Source of the DNA: Maylandia zebra
Taxonomy: Eukaryota > Chordata > Actinopteri > Cichliformes > Cichlidae
Assembly: GCF_041146795.1 (NCBI RefSeq)
Contig: NC_135183.1
Location: forward strand, 17,178,840 to 17,242,839
Length of the DNA stretch: 64,000 nt
Reading direction: 5' to 3'
The translations under genes and the position numbers were made by a program. Each line of letters begins with the position of its first letter. The stretch's first letter is position 1. Below, piece after piece: positions 1,321 to 56,300 of this stretch. Under the pieces are notes generated by a model. The model was given only the letters and a program-made list of their open reading frames with translations, was not told where the DNA came from and searched no databases.

Positions 1321-4300
1321 TACTACACCTTGGGAAGTGATTTTCTGCGTAACACCAGCACCACGCACACCGGATCTCTAAAGAGACCAGTGCAGGTGAT
1401 CTCTCTTATATATATATCATAAAGTCTAAGTTCAAATACTGGGATGGTCAAAAGCATGAATAATCAGCAGATGAATGGATGAATAACTTCAAATATTTAA
1501 CTGTGGGTATTATCTCTCCGCTGTAACTGAACTGTAACTTAATACGATAAAGGGCCGACTCTAATCTTCTCTTGCATCTTTTTTTCACAAGATTCAGGTT
1601 TGAACACGTGTGACTAAACTTGGCATTGAGTAAAAAAAGTAGTAAAGGGGCGGCAATTAATTTAAATATGAACATGCATAATAGAGAAAATAAAGGTGTG
1701 GAGTACATCAGCAAAACTTCATCTTAAACATTTAAACATTTCATTTTAATTAACAGTTTAACTGTGATGGACTCCCTGTACCTTCATCCAACAGAGTGTC
1801 CCTGTCCTGGATGGTGTGGCGGAGCAGGTCCTTATTGACGCTGTTCTGATTCAGGTCAGCAGTCTGAGCTGTTTACAGGAGAATCTGTGTCAGTATTCAG
1901 ATGTAAAGGGAACTCAGGCTGAGTCACTGCAGGCGAGCGTGAGCCTCAAGAGGAGCTGCTGCTGGTCAAAAGCAGCGTTTCAACAATGTGACAGAGACTG
2001 ATGGACTCTGCCTGTGGATCTATTTTCAGGGCTTATTAATGCAAAACAGTGACAGCTGGGGAATACATTTGCATCCTCTCTGCCTTCTTCCTCTCTGCAT
2101 TTGCTCATCCTCCTCGCTTCTTCCTCTGCTCTTCAGACTCCACAGCTGCCACCTAATTGGTGTTTGTGTGTGGATGAAATGTGAGCGGCTGAAATAAAAA
2201 TCCATCTGAAACCACCGGATCGTTCTGATAATAAAGTAAATGAAGGAGACGGAAAGCCGAGGTCAGGTAAACGTGAAGGACAAACTGCTGTGTGCAAAGT
2301 AAAACAGCAGCAGAAGAAGAAGAATGATGACGCTGAGGCTGGATGGGTTTCCAGTTGCAGATATGAGTGATGGAGGTGTGTGCCATCATCAGAGCTGAAT
2401 GATGAGCATTTATTTACTGTAAGGTCCTCACTTCGAACTAACCACACACGTGTGTGTAGGTGTGTGTGTGTGTTGAAGAAGATGGATGTTGACCCTGACA
2501 GCTTCGATCTGTCACAGTGACGAGTTTAAAAATAGAGAGATGAATAAAAGTGTCTGCTGCGACCTTTAGCTTCTCTCTTCTTCGCTCTCTCTTTGTTTGG
2601 AGCCTGTTTTTCCTCCGCCTTCATCATCTTTCACTCCTCACTCCACAGAAAGCAGCTGCACAACCAACTGAGGAGGTTTTCAGTTGTTTTTGTGCTAGCA
2701 TTAGTCAAAATGCATAAAAGAGCCTCAGAGGAGGAAAATATTTTCAGACTGAGGTCACATTAGCATGTTTCATCACAAGGTGATGTGAGCTGCTGGTGCA
2801 GATGGAGGGGAGAACAATTAAACAGATGAAAGTGATAAGGGGGAAAAATACTGTTAGAGTTAATTGTTAAATGTTGTCATTTTTGTACTTAAATTTGTAA
2901 ACCTTGTCTTAACCTGAATGTTTAGAGATTTTTCTGTTCCTTCCCTACATCTAGCTGGGGGAGGCAATTAGCTATAGATAATGTTTAACTGCAGGCACAT
3001 TCTATGTGAAGGTTCTGTTTTCTTATTTAGATGTTTTACTTCCTGCCCTTTATGGCCTCACCTGTGCTTGTGTATGGTGAGACTGTTAAAAAGTGGTTGA
3101 GCCATATACAGGGTTAGGGGAGATGACCCTTTGTGATCAGCAGGAAGTCACACAAAAACATCCACACACACTCACACATGCTCGCACATGCATACACAAA
3201 CACTGAGTGTCTTAGTTCAAAGGGGTTTCACAATGGGTGTTTGTGAAACTGCGTGTCACAGAATAAAAGGCTGCAGGGGAGGCTGGTTTTTTGGAGTCAT
3301 CTGAGACCGAGGGCAGAGGTACTGCCAAACGCTGTCCCCTTGCTAGCACGTTAAAACCGGTTGAGCTGTTTGTCTTGCTTTCTTCATGAGTGGTAAGTCT
3401 TTGAACCAGCAGGGCCTGCAAGGTGCAGACCCAACACATACAGTTATGTAAGTAACCAACGTGAAGGCGTCTCCTGATTGTAGACTTCACAATGATCCTA
3501 CTGCTTAGAGAGAGACTTCCTGGTTAGATGCTGTGAGGTTGTTCTTTCCATTGTGTTGTGATACTCATGCTTGCAGAGAGCATCTCAGCTGATGTTCTTC
3601 TGACAGACCTGCTGTAAATCAAATCACATTAGAGTCAGACTCTGTGCGCTAAACATGAAGCTGCTGGTAATCCTGCTGAATCGGAGTGCTAATGCTGCAG
3701 GTGGACAGCCGAACAGTGAGCTGAACATCACTGCAGAGCTGCTTAAGGCTGAGCTGACAGTATGAGAATTCTCTGGAGGTTCATAACTGTTAGCCTGTCA
3801 GCTCAGACTCAGGGATCATGGGAACATGTGTGACTGTATTGAAGCCCAGAGGTCCAGGTTCGGGCTGGTCACAGTCCAGCGGTCCTGCCTTGGGTCGATC
3901 GGGTCCTGGTCTGTGTGGTTAGCATTACGGTGAAGAAGAATGTGCTGCTGTTAATAAAACCTGTTCAAAGCCTCCATCATGTCACCGCATTAATAACGCA
4001 CACAGGCGCACAGAGAACGCTCATCCATAATGAAGCAGGCCTCTCATTAAGCCAGAAACATTTTACTTTGACATGAGCAGGAGTGTGTGTGTGGCCTGTT
4101 TGTCCTGTTAATGGGAGAGCAGCAGCGAGGCGCCGTTTGTCCAGATAGCAGCATAAATAATTTAGACGTAGCGAGGCGAGAGCAACGTGAATTCACTTTA
4201 TGAAACGTTAAACATGCTGCCAGCAGCCAGCGTGTTAAAGCTCTCTGCAGGACGCACACACATTTACTTCCTGCACACTAAACTACGTTTTCCAACATCA

Positions 4301-31400: not shown

Positions 31401-34400
31401 ACATCACTGGGTTGGTTAGTTGGTTGAGGCTAACAGACTTAGACTAATTTATGTTATAATGGGATTATTTAATAGTTCCAGCAACTTTAATATCCTAGAA
31501 AGAAAAGTTTAACTGAACAGACCTCAAAGTCTCCAGTCTACAGTGTGGACTCTCCAGACCAGCAAGCAATGGTTTCATTGCTGAATGCTGCAAAGAGTTG
31601 TTTCCACTCAAAATATGCAGGGGGGTGAAGCTCAGGTCCAGCTCTGTCAGATGGGAGGGGTTGGACATCAGAGCTGAGCCCAAAATTTCAAAGTGAGTCT
31701 CTGAGAGCCAAGCTTTACAAAGTCTGTGATGTAGAGGAGAAAACATGTTATTATAAAGAAGACACTTTAGATTACTCCCTAAATTTAATAAGAAGCAGTT
31801 TCTGTTTGGCATTTTGCTTTATGACACCAGTGGTTCAGCTAACCTGATCTGGCTGACATTAAACAATAGTTCGCCAGATGTTTCTTGGGCAGCCTCTCTT
31901 TCGCTTGCTTTGGGGGTTCCAGCCTGCTTTATGATGTTGGTTGGAGGTTTGCGTAGAGTGTGCCCTACCCAGCCTAGGAGAGAGATTTCCCATTCATTCC
32001 TAATCTGCATATGAATGGGATAAGCACTCACCCACTGCTTCAGCTTCAAATCCACAATTGAAACATTTAGAATCTGTTGTCGCGTGGTATAGGAATAAAA
32101 CTAATAACTCAACAGTATCAGACCTGAACTTCATTAAATATAAACATAATGAAATATTTCAATGTGGATGACATATGACTGTGCTTACTTCCTTAAATAA
32201 TGCTTCCCAGCATTATTTTTAACTTCTGAAAAATTTGTTCAGCACAAACACAATTAATAATTCAGTAGGGCTGAATATTTTTCAACATAATGTAATCAGA
32301 AAGATGTTGTTAGATCATGAACTAGTGATCTCACATGATCAGTAGTTCATGGTGTCTCATGTTGGTTCTTACAAGTTTTATAAAAATATTGCTCTTGAGC
32401 TGATTTTACTGAATAACTTTACTGATTTCATTTATATTACTGAAACCAAATAACTGCGACACTCAGTAACGGCTTCAAAAATTTTAAGCTACTGACAAAA
32501 TGAAATAATTAGAATAATCTTTCATTATAAATAAATATTTTCACAGTTTTTGAATCAGCTCCAGATGTGTGAGAAGATCAAACTGAAATGTAATGTATGG
32601 GAAGTAAGAAGAAAAGTGTAAAAGTATAAGAATAACATTGGGAATATTGTAGTGAGAATATCTGATAAACTATACAACTAATGTAAACTGATTTACAATC
32701 ACATCTGGACTCACAGAGCCTTTCTGCTGTTTCTCACAGCTGGAATCAGTCTTAAATGTCCCTCCTTTGTTGTGTTGTACTTCTCCAGGTCCAACTCATC
32801 CAGAACCTCATCTGACATCTGCAGAATGTAGGCCAGAGCTGAGCAGTGAATCTCAGAGAGGTTCTCTGATCTGTTCTCAGACTTCAGGAACTTTTGGATT
32901 TCTTGATATACTAAGACGTCGTTCATCTCTATCAGACAGTGGAAGATGTTGATGCTTCTGTCAGGAGAAACATTAAGTATGTTCATCTTCTTCAAGTTAA
33001 TGATGATTAGCTCAATGTGTTCTGGAATATTGTCTGTCTGACCCATTAGGCCTTTTAAAAGTTGTTGGTTGGACTCCAAACACAGGCCATGAAGGAAGCG
33101 AACAAACAGGTCCAGGTGGCCAGTTTCACTTTTAAGAGATTTCTCCATGATTCTATTCAAAAATACATCCAAAGATGAGATGTCTTTTTCCTGGAAGTCC
33201 TGCAGCACCTCTGTCTTTTTGTTGTTGTAACAGTGGAACATGTAGACAGCAGCCAGAAACTCCTGGATGCTGAGATGAACAAAGCAAAAGACTGGTTTCT
33301 GGAAGATCACACACTCTCTTTTGAAGATCTCTGTACAAACTCCTGAGTACACTGAGGCCTCTGTAACACTCAGACCACACTGCTCCAGGTCTTCTTGGTA
33401 GTACAGGATGTTTCCTTTCTCCATTTGTTCAAAGGCCAGCCTCCCGAGCTTCAGGAGAACTTCCCTGTCAGCCTCCATCAGCTCCTGTGGACTTGTCTCA
33501 CGTCCCTCGAGGTACTTGTTCTTCTTCCTCTTTGTCTGGACCAGCAGGAAATGTGAGTACATGTCAGTCAGGGTCTTGGGCAGCTCTCCCCTCTGCTCTG
33601 TAGTCAACATGTGCTCCAGAACTGCAGCAGTGATCCAGCAGAAGACTGGGATTGTACACATAATGTGGAGGCTCCTGGATGTCTTCATGTGGGAGATGAT
33701 TCTGCTGGACAGCTCTTCATCATTGAATCTCCTTCTGAAGTACTCCTCCTTCTGGGTGTCAGTGAAGCCTCGCACTTCTGTCATCCTGTCAATATAATCA
33801 GGAGGGATCTGATTGGCTGCTGCAGGTCGAGAAGTTATCCATATGAGAGCAGAGGGAAGCAGATTCCCCTCGATGAGATTTGTCAGCAGGAAACTGACTG
33901 ATGACTGCTGTGTGACATTAGACACAAGCTTTCTGTTGATGAAATCCAATGAAAGTCTGGTTTCATCCAGGCCGTCAAATATGAACAAAAGTTTACAGAC
34001 AGCGAGCTTCTCTGCTGTGACCTTCTGTAATGCTGGATGAAAAATATGGAGCAGCTCTAGAAGACTGTACTGCTCATCTCTGATCAGGTTCAGCTCCCTG
34101 AATGAAAGCAGAATCACCACACTGATGTCTTGGTTCTCCAAACCCTCTGACCAGTCCAGAGTGAACTTCTGCACTAAGAAGGTTTTTCCAATGCCAGCTA
34201 CGCCATTTGTCAGAACCACTCTAATTGGTCTCTGTTGGTCACATACGGCTTCAAAAATGTCTTGGCATCTGATTGGAGTGTCATCAAGAGTCTTCTTTTT
34301 GGAAGCTATCTCCAGCTGCCTCTCCTCATGTTGGTTATGAATCTCTTCACACTGTCCCTTTGTGATGTAGAGCTCAGTGTAGATGTTGTTGAGAAGAATT

Positions 34401-37400
34401 CCATTTCGTTTTTCATCAGTTCCTTCACTCACATGTTCATATCTCCTCTTCAAACTGATCTTATGTTCATCTAAAACCTCCTGCAAACCTGCAATTGCTG
34501 GAAAAAAGAAAAAAAAAACTGTGAAACTAAAGAACATAAAAATATCTCTAATACTTAAACAAATCAACAAGAAATCCAGCTTTCAGAAATTAGTCCAACA
34601 GCACACAGAGGTTCAGACTTACTTTGTTCACAGCTACTCTGACTGGTAGTCTGGAGTCGAGCTCTGATACTGGATTTTTCTCCACAATGGGGACAGGGGG
34701 AGTCTCCCGATGAAGCAGCCTGGTCCCAGTATGAGGTGAAGCACTGTCTGCAGAACCAGTGTCCACAGCTGGTAGAGACTGGATCCTTCAGGACATCCTG
34801 ACACAAAACACAGCAGCACAGCTGCTCCTCCACACAAGCATGACTTCCCTTCTCTCTGTGAATGACAATGAAAATTTATTTTGACCAATACAAACCACTG
34901 GCATAAAAGAAATACTAAGGTTTAAAACCAGCACTGGCTTCTAGAAAAAAAAAAAACTTTGGCATGTTTATAGTTCTGAGCACCTAGTAGTCTCTCCTTC
35001 AGCATCTTTTATTTCTGGTCTATTTTGACTCCAAACAAAATTACTTTATTGTATTTTATTTTCTTGAAATCATTTTTGTACCAAAAAAATAAATTCCAGA
35101 ATCTGAGAAGGCTTAACATCTTAAAGATTTTAAACTGTAACCAGTAACACCACTGTTTCATGGGATTATTAATTGAAAATTTCTGTCAGGGTTATTGATG
35201 TGGCAGGCAGGATGTGGACCCAAGTGTAGGACTCAAGGCACACATGGGGATAAACTCAAAGAGGCTGCTTTATTTGCTGTAAACATCCAAGCGACAAAAA
35301 TACAAAACTTAACCTAAATGGGAAACAAAAACTAGGGAGCTTGAAAAACACTAAACAGAGAAATTTGGAGCCAGGAGTTAACTAGAATGATTAACACAGG
35401 AGTAAAACAGAGAAACATACAACAACGAACAGAGCAAAACACAAGGCCTAAATAAAACAAGGTCAAAATGAGGGAATGGGAAACAGGAGGGAAATACAGC
35501 TGGGCTAATCTTACATAACAAGTTACGGAGGAAGAAAAACTGAATACACTGAACACAGGACAAGGAACTATCAAAATAAAAAGAGAAACACACAGACCAA
35601 AACTCAGACTTAAGACCGAAGCTTAACAAAGTGACTGGGGAGACAGGGAATACAGAGACAAGAGTGACTAGATGAAACACTGGACAAAGGAAAGGCACAG
35701 AGTAGACACAGGAACAGAGACTATGCACAGGTGAGATAAACACTAAGGGACGGAAAACCAAAATCATGAATAACAATAATCAAAGAATACTAAACCAAAA
35801 ATACAAACACTGGGTCACCAGACCCAGGATTGGGACAGTTACACCTGACAATTTCTGAATTTATCGAATCGACCATCATCTGTCCACTAATAGTTGCCCT
35901 TCATGAAAACATTGGAATTTCTTTTTGAGTGTTTGAAGCTAAAATTAAGCGTTACAATGACCATCACCGGTGCAGCTGACAGTTATCAAGTGGTGGGTAT
36001 ATCACTATTCACTAACTTTTTTTTTTTCTTTTAAAGCGTGTGTATGGGAGAAATTTTAATATTGTATGCCTGGAGTAGATTTTAGTAGTTTTTGCTGTAT
36101 GACTGTGAGCATTGAGCCTAGTCCTATTATTCTTTCGTGATTTTTTATTTTCTTGTTTTGTTTTTATTTTTGTGTTTTTTTTCACGCTACTTTTGTTTTA
36201 CAGCACCTTGGACGTATTTTCAAACTTTTGCCGCCTTTTGGTGAGTTTGTTTAAACACATAATTATATTTCATAATTATATTTCCTCAAGGTTAAACTCT
36301 TCTGGATGTCATTGTCTCAAATTTAATCATAACTCCTCTGACCACCACACCACAAGTGAGACATTTCTTCTTTTGCATGTTACCGGTTTTGGGCACTGAC
36401 CTGTAACTCTGTCAGGGTTGGTTTTATGGGGCTGAATCCTGTTATTCTGGCACCGGGAACACACTGTGGCACAGTGTTTAGGACTGTTGCCTCACAGCAA
36501 GAACTGTGTTCAATTCCACCATCAGGCTGGGATGTATGGAGTTTGCATGCTCTCCCAAAGACATACAGTTCGTCTTGTTTTCATGATAGAGCTTTAACCT
36601 AAATGTGTAGAGACCTGCTGCCGTCTGGTCAGCGCCTCAGGTCAATCAGGTACCACACCTCCAGACTCACAGTTTCTTCCCCTGAGACAATGTTAAGACT
36701 GAGTGTCGACGAGAGAGGTGAGGCCCTACTTTCACACTCTGTGGGCAGTATCTGAGGAAGTCCTTAAACCACATACAGATGTGGATTAATATGTGGGAGG
36801 CCAAGGTTAATTAGTTCTGCTATCAGTCTTTTAGTGATGATTGTTGAATGCCGAGCTGAAGTGTATAAAAAGAAACTTGGTATAACTGTGCTTGAAGCCA
36901 ATATAGGAGAAATATGTTCTCTCTTTCTAGTCCGTGCCAATACTTTCACTACAGCCTTTTGGATTAACCGAAGACTTTTCCGGGAGTTTTTAGGACAGCC
37001 CAGTAATAATGAGTTACAATAGTCCAGCCTACATGTAATAAATGCATAAACTAGTTTTTCATCATCACTCTGAGACAGGACGTTTCTAATTTTAGAGATA
37101 CTGTGCAAATCGAGGAAAGCAGTCCTACAAATTTGCAAACTGAAAGACATATTTTGAACAAAAATGACTTTGTTCAGATTTTCCAGTGTTAGGGAAGCCC
37201 AGGCAATGACATTAAAAGACGATATCTTTACCTATTTCTAAATCTTTTAGGGCCAAGTACAGTAACCCTAGTTTAATCTGAATTTAGAAACATTAAATTA
37301 GAGGTGATCCAAATTTTTATGTCTGTGTCTGGATCGATGTATTGGCATGGAGAACAACTCAGTATTAGTATCTTGCCCAAGGATATTTGCCATCCAGACT

Positions 37401-46860: not shown

Positions 46861-46867
46861 GAGGAGA

Positions 46868-46874
46868 AAACACA
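46868..46874 (+). promoter_or_regulatory. H1 box (AAACACA) upstream of H1
   Basis: AAACACA lies 137 bases upstream of the H1 ATG. This heptamer is the H1-specific promoter element of vertebrate replication-dependent H1 genes. A TATA-like TGTATTTAAG lies closer to the start (about 46940). Confidence 0.75.
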
Positions 46875-47010
46875 AGAGCCAAGGTCTTCTCGCTGCAGCT
46901 GTGAGCTGCAGGCAGGGTTGAGTCTCCACGGTTCTCGTGTTGTATTTAAGTTCCAGTCACTGTGCGGAGATTTCTATCGTCTCATCGACAAACACCACTC
47001 TCTTAACGAC

Positions 47011-47646
47011 ATGGCAGAAGTCGCTCCCGCAGCAGCCCCAGCACCGGCCGCCGAGGCAGCTCCAGCAAAGGCCCCGGCCAAGAAGAAGAAGGCATCAGCA
47101 AGCAAGACTATCAAGAAGTCTGGCCCGTCCGCTAGCGAGCTCATCGTAAAAGCTGTGAAAGAGTCCAAAGAACGTAAAGGACTCTCTCTGGCTGCTATTA
47201 AGAAGGATCTCGTCGCTCGCGGTTACGACGTAGAGCATAACTCTGCTCACGTCAGGCGCGCTTTGAAAAGCCTGGTGCAGAAAGGCGCTCTGGTCCACAC
47301 CACCGGAACCGGGGCATCCGGTTCTTTCAAGGCAGCAAAGCCAGCGGAGAAGCCCAAGAAGGCAGCCAAAAAGCCCGCTGCTAAAGTAAAGAAGCCGGCG
47401 GCAAAGAAGGCAACTGCAGCTAAGAAACCAGCCACCGCCAAGAAGCCCAAAGCAGCAAAAGCCACCCCGAAGAAGGCAAAGAAGCCCACGGCAGCTGCAA
47501 AGAAGGCTGTGGCCAAGAAGGCAAAGAGCCCCAAGGTGAAGAAGACAGCCGCGCCCAAGAAAGCAGCGACCCCCAAAAAGCCTGCAAAGAAGGCTGCAAA
47601 GCCTAAAGCTGCTAAGGCCAAGAAGGCTACACCAAAGAAGAAGTAA
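47011..47646 (+). CDS. Linker histone H1, replication-dependent type
   Basis: Binds the nucleosome dyad and linker DNA and compacts chromatin. The 211-residue protein has an Ala/Pro-rich N-tail ([20 protein letters not shown]), a globular winged-helix domain at about residues 36-110 ([40 protein letters not shown] and GTGASGSF), and a long Lys/Ala/Pro tail with many KKA and PKK repeats and TPKK/SPK sites. Length fits vertebrate somatic H1 (about 195-225). The chosen ATG at 47011 gives the usual MAEVAPA start; 31 upstream in-frame codons are 5' UTR. The upstream H1 box and downstream stem-loop support S-phase regulation. An intronless single exon, as expected. Confidence 0.97.
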
Positions 47647-49009: not shown

Positions 49010-50182
49010 TCATCGCATCATTATATGCAACATGCAGCTTCTGCATGCTACATTGTTTGTAGGATGTGCAATACGCTTTAAACAAAGCCACTTTAACTGG
49101 AAGTGAACAAAAGCTGAATTTGCGTGTGATAGTATTTGCCTGCACATAGAGCTTACACCGTTGTCATCATCATCATTCATTTGCTCAGTAATAAAGTGGC
49201 CGAGGTATTTCATCTTTTTATAAACTTCAAGAGTTTTTTGGGGCAGTTTAAACAAAGGAAAATGTAGGTGTTTATCCTGCTTGGTTCTACATATCAAAAC
49301 AGCACTTTTAACAGCATTGTACTTTATATCATATTGCACACCATATTCAGTACAGACATTGAGAAGATCCTGTAACCCAGCACTGCTTGGACTAAAAACA
49401 ACCAGGTCATCTGCATACATAAGATGATTTATCAGTGCTTCACCTAATATACACCCAGTGTTACAGGCTCTCAGCTGTATGGACAAATCATCAACATATA
49501 GATTAAATAAAATTGGAGACAAAATCCCACCCTGTCTAACACCATTGCTGACACCAAAGGGGGCAGAAATACTGCTTCCCCATTTAACCTGCATGTTCTG
49601 ATGAGCGTACCAGTAAGAAAGAATCCTCACGATGTACTGAGGAACTCCCCGTCTCTTCAGTTTATCAAAAAGGCTTCTGTGGTTCACAGAAATCCAGAAC
49701 CAGAACACACTAACTCTGTCAAACAAGATTCTTTCTAACACCTTAGATAAAATACTGGCTAGTGCAATCGGCCTATAATTATCCAAACAGCTCACATTTG
49801 CAGCTTTGTCCTTCATAACTGGTACCAGTAAAATACACAGCATTGAGTCTGGTAATATGCCATGAATCATAAACCCAGTGAAACAGAGTGCTAGAAGAGG
49901 AGCTAGCCTTACACTAGCATGTTTTAAATGTTCTGCAGTGATGTGATCCAAACCAGAGGATTTATCATCAGATAACCTATGAATGGCTCCATATACTTCA
50001 TATGTCCTTACACTTATTGTGTCATTACTCATGTCAAAATTGTCCTCATATGGTTCACTTTTTATACAGTTAAACAACGCACTGTAATGCTGTCTCCATA
50101 ATGCTGCAATGTTATCTGCCCCAGAAACACCTTCAACAGTTGATGGTAGAAATGGTTTACAGTCATTAAGAGCTCTTTTCAA
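49010..50182 (-). pseudogene. LINE reverse transcriptase (broken)
   Basis: Copies element RNA into DNA at the nicked target in active relatives. This copy keeps the fingers and palm blocks and YADD, but an internal deletion removes the segment with the first catalytic Asp, and the C-terminus continues only in the frame of 49145-48897. The start at 50182 is simply the first start-type codon after a stop; the true ORF2 began in the endonuclease upstream. Confidence 0.85.
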
Positions 50183-51304
50183 AAATCTGTCATATTATTA
50201 CACAACATTTTCCTGGACAAAGAATCTGCTGTCAGCATTTGCTCATTTTTAGTTATAAAGCGAACAGCGTACTTATATCTGGCATTAGCACATTTTTTCT
50301 GGGCCTTGTTTAGGTCTTCTAGCCATGGCCCAACATTTATAAGCTATGCGAGCTTGATCATGGTACATGGATACATGTTCTTTCCAGCCAGGTCTGATGT
50401 TAGGTTTCTTATGCTTATATTGTTTATCAAGCAGTGTACCACTTTCATACAGAGCAGTCACTATATCATCATACATGGAGCAGAGTAAATGTTTATGCAC
50501 AGCATTCTTACAGTTGACATCCTTGCACAAAATAGCTTCTTTGGGCAAAGAAATGTTGTTCAGATGTATATCGGTATTACTATGATAAGCTAAGAAATCA
50601 TCTTCACCAAATGCTGACCAGTCTAATTTTACACTGGTAGCAATATTAGCAATATTATTTCCAGTTGTTGCTGGCATTTGTTCCACATTCACAGTAAAAC
50701 CAAAAGGTATATGGCCTGACAGAGTTACCTCATACCTAATAGTCATGTTTGCTAAAGCTGCATGTCCATCAGCTGTACAGATACAGTGGTCCAGCCATGA
50801 TGTACTATGTCAGGCTTCACTTATGTATGTATAGCTCTCTGCAGGCAGTAACATTTGGGTAGACAGGATAAGATTGTTAACTTCACAAAAGTGGGTTAAG
50901 TGGTTAGCAAACCAAGAACTGCTGTCTGTGAGATCAGCATTAAAATCACCCAAAACATATGCTGTAAGTATCGTTGTCTTGAATAAATGTATTAATAAAG
51001 GCCAGCCTACTAAGGTATTCTTGCTCATTTTGACAAGAGGGAGCATACATATTAAGAATGATAAAACTACTATTATTTTGTGTATATTGTATACCAATAC
51101 ACCAGTCTACATTCAGTCTAATTGGCTTTATCTTTTAAATGATTTGATAAAAGTTGTGTTTTCCATTAAGCTCTGCGTTTTGGGGTGTGTTTCATTCAGC
51201 TCTGGTTTGAATCACTGCGCTTAATCTATGGCTTCACTTCCTTATCAGGACTTTTGATTTTCCCGCTTCAACAGACGAGCCATTGATCACGCGCACAGAT
51301 TGGA

Positions 51305-51378: not shown

Positions 51379-51798
<420 letters not shown>

Positions 51799-54229: not shown

Positions 54230-54496
54230 CTGTATGGTGTTCATGCAGTTTTCTACCCCACAGTTACAGCATGTCTGACTGCCTGCTCAGCGTATGCAAA
54301 AATATATGATGAGATGATGAGTTTAAGCATGTGATGAGAAAGGCCTTCCATTATGGTGTTTGTCATCACATGTCACAGACATCTGGATGATCATCTGGAA
54401 TAAACAAGAAACTAAAAACTTGTTACTTCATCTTTTATCTTTATTATTGTTCTTATTTCCCTCTTCCATGTTACTGTGTCAGCTTGTCAGCATCTA

Positions 54497-56111
54497 CAGT
54501 GGGGCAAAAAAGTATTTAGTCAGCCACCGATTGTGCAAGTTCCCCCACCTAAAATGATGACAGAGGTCAGTAATTTGCACCAGAGGTACACTTCAACTGT
54601 GAGAGACAGAATGTGAAAAAAAAAAAAAAAAAATCCATGAATCCACATGGTAGGATTTGTAAAGAATTCATTCGTAAATCAGGGTGGAAAATAAGTATTT
54701 GGTCAATAACAAAAATACAACTCAATACTTTGTAACATAACCTTTGTTGGCAATAACAGAGGTCAAACGTTTACTATAGGTCTTTACCAGGTTTGCACAC
54801 ACAGTAGCTGGTATTTTAGCCCATTCCTCCATGCAGATCTTCTCGAGAGCAGTGATGTTTTGGGGCTGTCGCCGAGCAACACGGACTTTCAACTCCCGCC
54901 ACAGATTTTCTATGGGGTTGAGGTCTGGAGACTGGCTAGGCCACTCCAGGACTTTCAAATGCTTCTTACGGAGCCACTCCTTTGTTGCCCGGGCGGTGTG
55001 TTTTGGATCTTTGTCATGTTGGAAGACCCAGCCTCGTTTCATCTTCAAAGTTCTCACTGATGGAAGGAGGTTTTGGCTCAAAATCTCACGATATATGGCC
55101 CCATTCATTCTGTCCTTAACACGGATCAGTCGTCCTGTCCCCTTGGCAGAAAAACAGCCCCATAGCATGATGTTTCCACCCCCATGCTTCACAGTAGGTA
55201 TGGTGTTCTTGGGATGCAACTCAGTATTCTTCTTCCTCCAAACACGACGAGTTGAGTTTATACCAAAAAGTTCAACTTTGGTTTCATCTGACCACATGAC
55301 ATTCTCCCAATCCTCTGCTGTATCATCCATGTGCTCTCTGGCAAACTTCAGACGGGCCTGGACATGCACTGGCTTCAGCAGCGGAACACGTCTGGCACTG
55401 CGGGATTTGATTCCCTGCCGTTGTAGTGTGTTACTGATGGTGACCTTTGTTACTTTGGTCCCAGCTCTCTGCAGGTCATTCACCAGGTCCCCCCGTGTGG
55501 TTCTGGGATCTTTGCTCACCGTTCTCATGATCATTTTGACCCCACGGGATGAGATCTTGCGTGGAGCCCCAGATCGAGGGAGATTATCAGTGGTCTTGTA
55601 TGCCTTCCATTTTCTGATGATTGCTCCCACAGTTGATTTTTTCACACCAAGCTGCTTGCCTATTGTAGATTCACTCTTCCCAGTCTGGTGCAGGTCTACA
55701 ATACTTTTCCTGGTGTCCTTCGAAAGCTCTTTGGTCTTGGCCATGGCGGCGTTTGGAGTCTGACTGTTTGAGGCTGTGGACAGGTGTCTTTTATACAGAT
55801 GATGAGTTCAAACAGGTGCCATTCATACAGGTAACGAGTGGGGGACAGAAAAGCTTCTTACAGAGGACGTTACAGGTCTGTGAGAGCCAGAGATTTTCCT
55901 TGTTTGAGGTGACCAAATACTTATTTTCCACCCTAATTTACGAATAAATTCTTTACAAATCCTACCATGTGGATTCATGGATTTTTTTTTTTCACATTCT
56001 GTCTCTCACAGTTGAAGTGTACCTCTGGTGCAAATTACTGACCTCTGTCATCATTTTAAGTGGGGGAACTTGCACAATCGGTGGCTGACTAAATACTTTT
56101 TTGCCCCACTG
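54497..56111 (-). mobile_element. Complete Tc1/Sleeping Beauty-type transposon
   Basis: The 1615-bp element starts CAGTGGGGCAAAAAAGTATT and ends with the inverse; TA flanks it at 54495-54496 and 56112-56113. Inverted repeats of 208 bp (54497-54704) and 201 bp (55911-56111) differ by three substitutions and an A-run of 18 versus 11. Each repeat holds an outer and an inner copy of a (G)AAAATAAGTATTTGGTC-like motif, the IR/DR layout of Sleeping Beauty-type elements. A single intact transposase is encoded on the - strand. All parts needed for movement appear present. Confidence 0.96.
54722..55744 (-). CDS. Tc1-type transposase, intact (DD34E, 340 aa)
   Basis: Cut-and-paste transposase that binds the inverted repeats and inserts at TA. 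It is 340 residues, the exact length of Sleeping Beauty-type enzymes. N-terminal paired-like DNA-binding region: [20 protein letters not shown] with helix-turn-helix [20 protein letters not shown], then a GRPR-like hinge (SGAPRKI, about 58-64) and a second HTH ([18 protein letters not shown]). Catalytic triad: D153 (WSDET), D244 ([10 protein letters not shown]) and E279 ([11 protein letters not shown]), with 34 residues between the second D and E. The glycine-rich box [13 protein letters not shown] is present. The frame ends TKY*. No premature stop or frameshift. Confidence 0.97.
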
Positions 56112-56201
56112 TATTTGGGGTTGGGAGTGGAACAGAAAGTAAGGAAACCCAGAGTGCCATTAAAAACAGGAGAGGTTCTTATATTTCAAAAATGGTAAAT
56201 G

Positions 56202-56300
56202 GCCTGTATTTGTATAGCGCTTTACTAGTCCCTAAGGACCCCAAAGCGCTTTACACATCCAGTCATGCACCCATTCACACACACATTCACACACTGGTGA
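56202..56300 (+). mobile_element. Fragment of an abundant fish dispersed repeat
   Basis: TGGTAAATGGCCTGTATTTG, TATAGCGCTTTACTAGTCCC, CCAAAGCGCTTTACACATCC and CACCCATTCACACACACATT phrases are those of a very common teleost SINE-like repeat, as recalled from general knowledge. Cut off after CACACTGGTGATGGG. Confidence 0.6.

Follow-up and report, generated by a model that had tools for sequence, protein, structure and literature searches.

The window examined here, a stretch of 64,000 nucleotides from the cichlid Maylandia zebra, carries a Tc1-type transposon that an initial annotation described as complete, as a member of a young family and as possibly active, an exception among Tc1 copies that are mostly dead. 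Is this copy an autonomous source of transposase in a family that is jumping today? Or, is it one of many products of an amplification, in a family that may or may not still move? The evidence presented here indicates that it is very probably a full-length DD34E/Tc1 copy, which inserted at a TA dinucleotide in an older repeat while its family was amplifying largely in synchrony.

The positions of the element and its parts are given in Table 1. The completeness claimed for it holds, with TA at both ends and a 340-codon open frame containing D153, D244 and E279. The terminal inverted repeats (TIRs), said to be of 0.2 kb with three base differences besides an A-run, align in just this way, with three differences and a 7-nt length difference in the A-run; the inverted-repeat arms are 132 nt at 99% and 83 nt at 98%. 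The IR/DR motifs, described as kept, are indeed present. The outer 27 nt are repeated at the inner edge of the TIR, at 21 of 27 positions on the left and 20 of 27 on the right, which is the long-TIR (IR/DR) layout of Sleeping Beauty (SB) type, with two direct repeats within each ~0.2-kb TIR. In a control made for the left end, the TIR interior was shuffled by mononucleotides 20,000 times and never attained 21. All of the 40 nearest copies, the window copy counted, start with TACAGTGG and finish with CCACTGTA. Three TIR mismatches are seen in each of 13 of 36 copies, the window copy among these, and such mismatches are not usable as a clock. Judged by the ends, we take Passport-like to be a possible match for the window element. 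The 32-letter TIR end gave no match in literature text, nor did the first nine TIR letters in the Tc1 transposon literature, and eight of these nine are absent from the main text of PMC2198921.

Table 1. The transposon, its component parts and its insertion site in the window
Feature	Position	Strand	Basis or remark
Complete Tc1/DD34E transposon, TA to TA	54495..56113	- (transposase strand)	1,619 bp counting both TAs
Left terminal inverted repeat, ~0.21 kb, 18-A run	54495..54705	+	outer 34 bp identical to family
Outer direct repeat, left IR/DR end	54496..54522	+	27-nt repeat comparison
Inner direct repeat, left IR/DR end	54679..54705	+	21/27 identical to outer repeat
Transposase open reading frame, 340 aa	54722..55744	-	open frame with D153/D244/E279
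Codon 245, Lys here versus Asn in nearly all examined copies	55010..55012	-	exact 33-mer counts
Right terminal inverted repeat, ~0.20 kb, 11-A run	55910..56113	-	end-to-end alignment
Left junction, host ...GCATC then TA	54493..54496		paralogous empty sites
Older interspersed repeat, left part	54244..54494		joined-flank search of own genome
Older interspersed repeat, right part	56114..56191		joined-flank search of own genome

The transposase has the features of the DD34E/Tc1 class. The residues D244 and E279 are separated by 34 others, and Pfam recognizes a two-part HTH region (HTH_SB, 9.6e-24; HTH_Tnp_Tc3_2, 6.6e-23) and DDE_3 (4.6e-15), all three exceeding the cut-off. The translation includes RRVPLLK, a linker motif with the PLL core that the available text of PMC9777934 describes for SB-type Tc1 elements. 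The NCBIfam label is IS630 family transposase, a label designed for bacteria and archaea. A search of viral contigs for relatives gave no match; in prokaryote genome contigs eight stretches fitted a pattern and none encodes a relative.

Sleeping Beauty resembles the window element in its domain order (HTH_SB, second HTH, DDE_3), its IR/DR ends and its TA target, and D153, D244 and E279 of the window transposase align to positions of the SB chain. The catalytic-domain chain of SB100X (5cr4_A) shares 134 of 227 residues with the window transposase, about 41% of the aligned residues being different. Unlike SB, which was rebuilt from inactive copies (PMC7913693, available text), in the window family open frames occur in natural copies. 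The ZB, ZB-like and SB-like DD34E/Tc1 elements, compared here by description, are likewise of ~1.6 kb with a ~340-aa transposase, ~0.2-kb TIRs and a TA target (available text of PMC9777934 and PMC7913693). From what is known of this class, paired-like HTH domains of the transposase would recognise both direct repeats, outer and inner, at each ~0.2-kb end; excision would be the work of its DDE domain, and the element would re-insert at a TA that becomes duplicated.

The site into which the element inserted can be read from other copies of the repeat that surrounds it. The two flanks were fused at a single TA and searched against the own genome, with 40 of 1,368 first-look candidates scored. Copies of the older repeat that span the junction without a Tc1 account for 36 of 96 rows among the matches listed, one of them starting just four bases ahead of the TA. 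Three of these paralogous empty sites, compared base by base, read GCATC-TA-TTTGG and are 95–97% identical over 116–120 bp. They have a single TA, versus two in the window, as a target duplication gives. Across 80 loci including that of the window, symmetrised (n = 160), the positions beside the TA favour T at +1 (0.55), A at +2 (0.41) and T at +3 (0.67), a ATATATAT-like preferred site. No two of the 80 loci have the same 20-bp left flank, so these are separate insertions. The older repeat is split by a second insert as well, of ~107 bp at 56192-56298, which is missing from most paralogs among the matches listed; the repeat resumes at 56299.

The transposon sits ~2.7 kb past histone genes. Open frames are present for linker histone H1 (46861-47646, +) and for a core histone (51379-51798, +), presumably H3 from its sequence. 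Between these two genes is a reverse-transcriptase frame (49010-50194, -; RVT_1, 1.3e-21), apparently a broken LINE, and beside it is a frame without a Pfam match (50285-50809, -). Elsewhere in the window, a long open frame (32711-34582, -) with FISNA, which is fish-specific, NACHT, NOD2_WH and NLRC4_HD2 domains represents all or part of an NLR immune-receptor gene of fish.

How many copies of the element are there, and how many could still encode the enzyme? The count of near-identical copies that the initial annotation had proposed was made with the exact 34-bp end, which is found 3,052 times in forward and 3,007 times in reverse orientation in the own 962-Mb genome (6,059 in total; 0 for a reversed control). 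With two ends per copy, this gives ~3,000 copies. A sample chosen by position was assembled from 100 listed end sites within the initial 18 Mb of C1, where 40 of 41 convergent end-pairs less than 5 kb apart were used, the remaining pair being omitted for batch size alone; this C1 sample excludes 18 listed ends without an exact partner inside 5 kb. The 340-aa frame is open in 22 of its 40 copies, and in 21 of the 34 that are 1,590-1,640 bp long. The window copy is therefore not the exception among dead ones that it had been taken for. The 40 nearest copies, again including that of the window, are all full length and 38 have the 340-aa frame, although this set was picked by similarity and is not a neutral sample. 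A protein search, biased in that it reports the best candidates only, scored 119 places; a stop is absent from 118 of these, and 112 have the same bit score. Broken frames were found in 14 of 35 C1 copies, and six of these are slips at a T run (55636; L050, L075 and L087) or a CA run (54795-54797; L068, L070 and L085). The slips may be slippage or assembly error, in which case 22 of 40 could be an undercount. Extrapolated to the genome, the number of coding-intact copies would be well above a thousand.

A full-length open frame might also be expected if the transposase were a domesticated host gene under selection. This is extremely improbable, as the frame is accompanied by ~6,000 dispersed exact ends and the changes that it has acquired are in near-neutral proportions: single changes in 40 copies comprise 49 nonsynonymous or stop versus 18 synonymous, with a neutral expectation of 2.96:1. 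Copies of this transposon decay almost neutrally once inserted. The family's transposase itself probably works.

The family is young. The C1 copies of 1,570-1,640 bp, 35 of the 40, have a mean pairwise K2P divergence of 0.79%, and the 40 nearest copies one of 0.57%. The initial annotation had allowed that all copies might prove diverged, and at a mean of less than 1% among ~3,000 copies with so many open frames they bear out the youth that it proposed. In a tree of 77 copies the branching is that of a star, with 59 of the 74 inner branches open. The number of changes per copy, counted over 1,583 sites wherever a copy differs from the majority of its column, has a mean of 4.73 and a variance of 3.33 in 33 of the 35 C1 copies, consistent with one Poisson burst (dispersion p 0.89). 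When L076 and L051 are retained a single burst is rejected (p 2e-4), thus not all copies come from one burst. These two, with 20 and 12 changes, are the most altered of the C1 copies and lie outside the burst; they may mark an older wave or a source lineage. An exact 250-mer is found at 1,713 sites genome-wide and is without difference in 20 of the 35 C1 copies, for which the expected proportion is 0.52 under one burst versus 0.60 under exponential ages; the count does not separate these two models. A rate of 3.5e-9 per site per generation, given for cichlids, and a generation time of 3 years (PMC12186717, available text, citing Malinsky et al. 2018) would put the mean age of the C1 copies at 0.85 million generations, about 2.6 million years.

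Where does the window copy fall within this amplification? Compared within the C1 set it carries eight changes, a number that two of the 35 C1 copies exceed and one equals, the other 32 having fewer; among the 40 nearest copies and among all 77 it has six. The one-sided Poisson probability of at least eight changes with a mean of 4.73 is ~0.11, about one in nine. The window copy is thus on the older side of the burst but is no outlier and is not clearly older. Its transposase differs from the commonest protein by T48A, M217I and N245K, each present in no other, or almost no other, of 40 copies. Residue 245 adjoins the catalytic D244 in the motif HDNDPKH, and its equivalent is Asn in the Sleeping Beauty and Mos1 chains. 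Exact 33-mers genome-wide find the Lys-AAA form at three sites and the Asn-AAT form at 3,014. On this comparison of sequences, N245K probably weakens the window copy's own transposase.

The proposal that the family is jumping today, with the window copy as its active autonomous source, is consistent with the open frame, DDE triad and intact ends of this copy and with the full frame in about half of the position-chosen sample. It is nonetheless very unlikely to be correct, since the window copy has more changes than the mean by either measure (8 versus 4.73 in the 33 C1 copies, 6 versus 3.35 in the 40 nearest) and carries Lys beside D244 where nearly all copies examined, Sleeping Beauty and Mos1 have Asn. 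With six to eight changes, above the average, three of them protein-altering and one beside D244, the window copy looks unpromising as the active one. The activity that the initial annotation held possible is less likely for this copy as a source of enzyme. Its outer ends are exact, however, so that mobilisation in trans, by the enzyme of another copy, could still occur.

The possibility that the three Lys245-AAA copies represent one mobilised lineage was considered and rejected. Apart from Lys245, the window copy has no rare change in common with either of its two companions, which the tree groups together with weak support (85/76). A further Lys245 copy, L090, uses AAG, and recurrent mutation is therefore as good an explanation. 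By our own estimate, so few Lys245 sites are about what neutral mutation would be expected to produce over 3,000 copies. One of the two other Lys245-AAA copies, L089 (C17:17631692-17635700), is on the same chromosome as the window copy and just ~400 kb from it, yet the two have no further rare change in common.

If the window copy is not the source, might the family nevertheless be mobile at a low rate through other intact copies, with the window copy as a passenger open to mobilisation in trans? The intact ends of this copy and the full frames of 22 of the 40 sampled copies are in keeping with such mobility, as are four of the 40 nearest copies (L010, L030, L035 and L045), which have one change, or, for one of the four when compared with all 77, none. 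These four indicate a minority of insertions younger than would be supposed from the C1 sample, and they are the likeliest recent insertions in the 40-nearest set. On the other hand, none of the 35 C1 copies has fewer than two changes, there is no identical pair among the 77 copies, and an empty allele of the window locus was not found in the one assembly, in which the best junction-crossing match is 96% identical; a collapsed assembly would conceal any such allele. We regard low-rate mobility as a real possibility, somewhat short of an even chance.

Amplification in a burst, which remains our preferred reading for the window copy, has precedents. ZB, ZB-like, SB and SB-like Tc1 elements are known in vertebrates, SB-like and ZB being widespread in Cichliformes, and at least 100 intact ZB-like copies are present in 26 species, of which 19 are ray-finned fishes (PMC9777934, available text). 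Salmonid Tc1 elements have spread in short master-like bursts (PMC2198921, available text), and Tc1 elements have been transferred between teleosts and lampreys, the latter having thousands of copies (PMC3516227, available text). In Metriaclima zebra a Tc1-Mariner expansion has been described, with recent (0-1% divergence) copies making up 1.3% of M_zebra_UMD2 versus 0.5% of O_niloticus_UMD1 (PMC6447674, available text). That figure is for the superfamily and not for the window family, whose ~3,000 copies of 1.6 kb would amount to ~0.5% of 962 Mb. TRT is also Tc1-like, with activity inferred in Haplochromini, but is DD37E whereas the window element is DD34E (PMC5630946, available text). The window family fits this published picture of Tc1 bursts, and recent bursts in haplochromine cichlids have already been reported. 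No publication on Tc1 insertion polymorphism in cichlids was found, judged by search terms and by the titles listed.

More tentatively still, we suggest that the family is segregating and mobile in this fish lineage to the present, with well over a thousand coding-intact copies, by extrapolation, and with decayed copies carried in trans. Insertion polymorphism would then be expected in the low-divergence copies rather than in the window copy. With thousands of copies, about half of them coding in the sample, the family lets the start and stop of a vertebrate Tc1 invasion be measured and, if it is indeed still segregating and mobile, would be a natural system in which to watch the end of a vertebrate DNA-transposon invasion.
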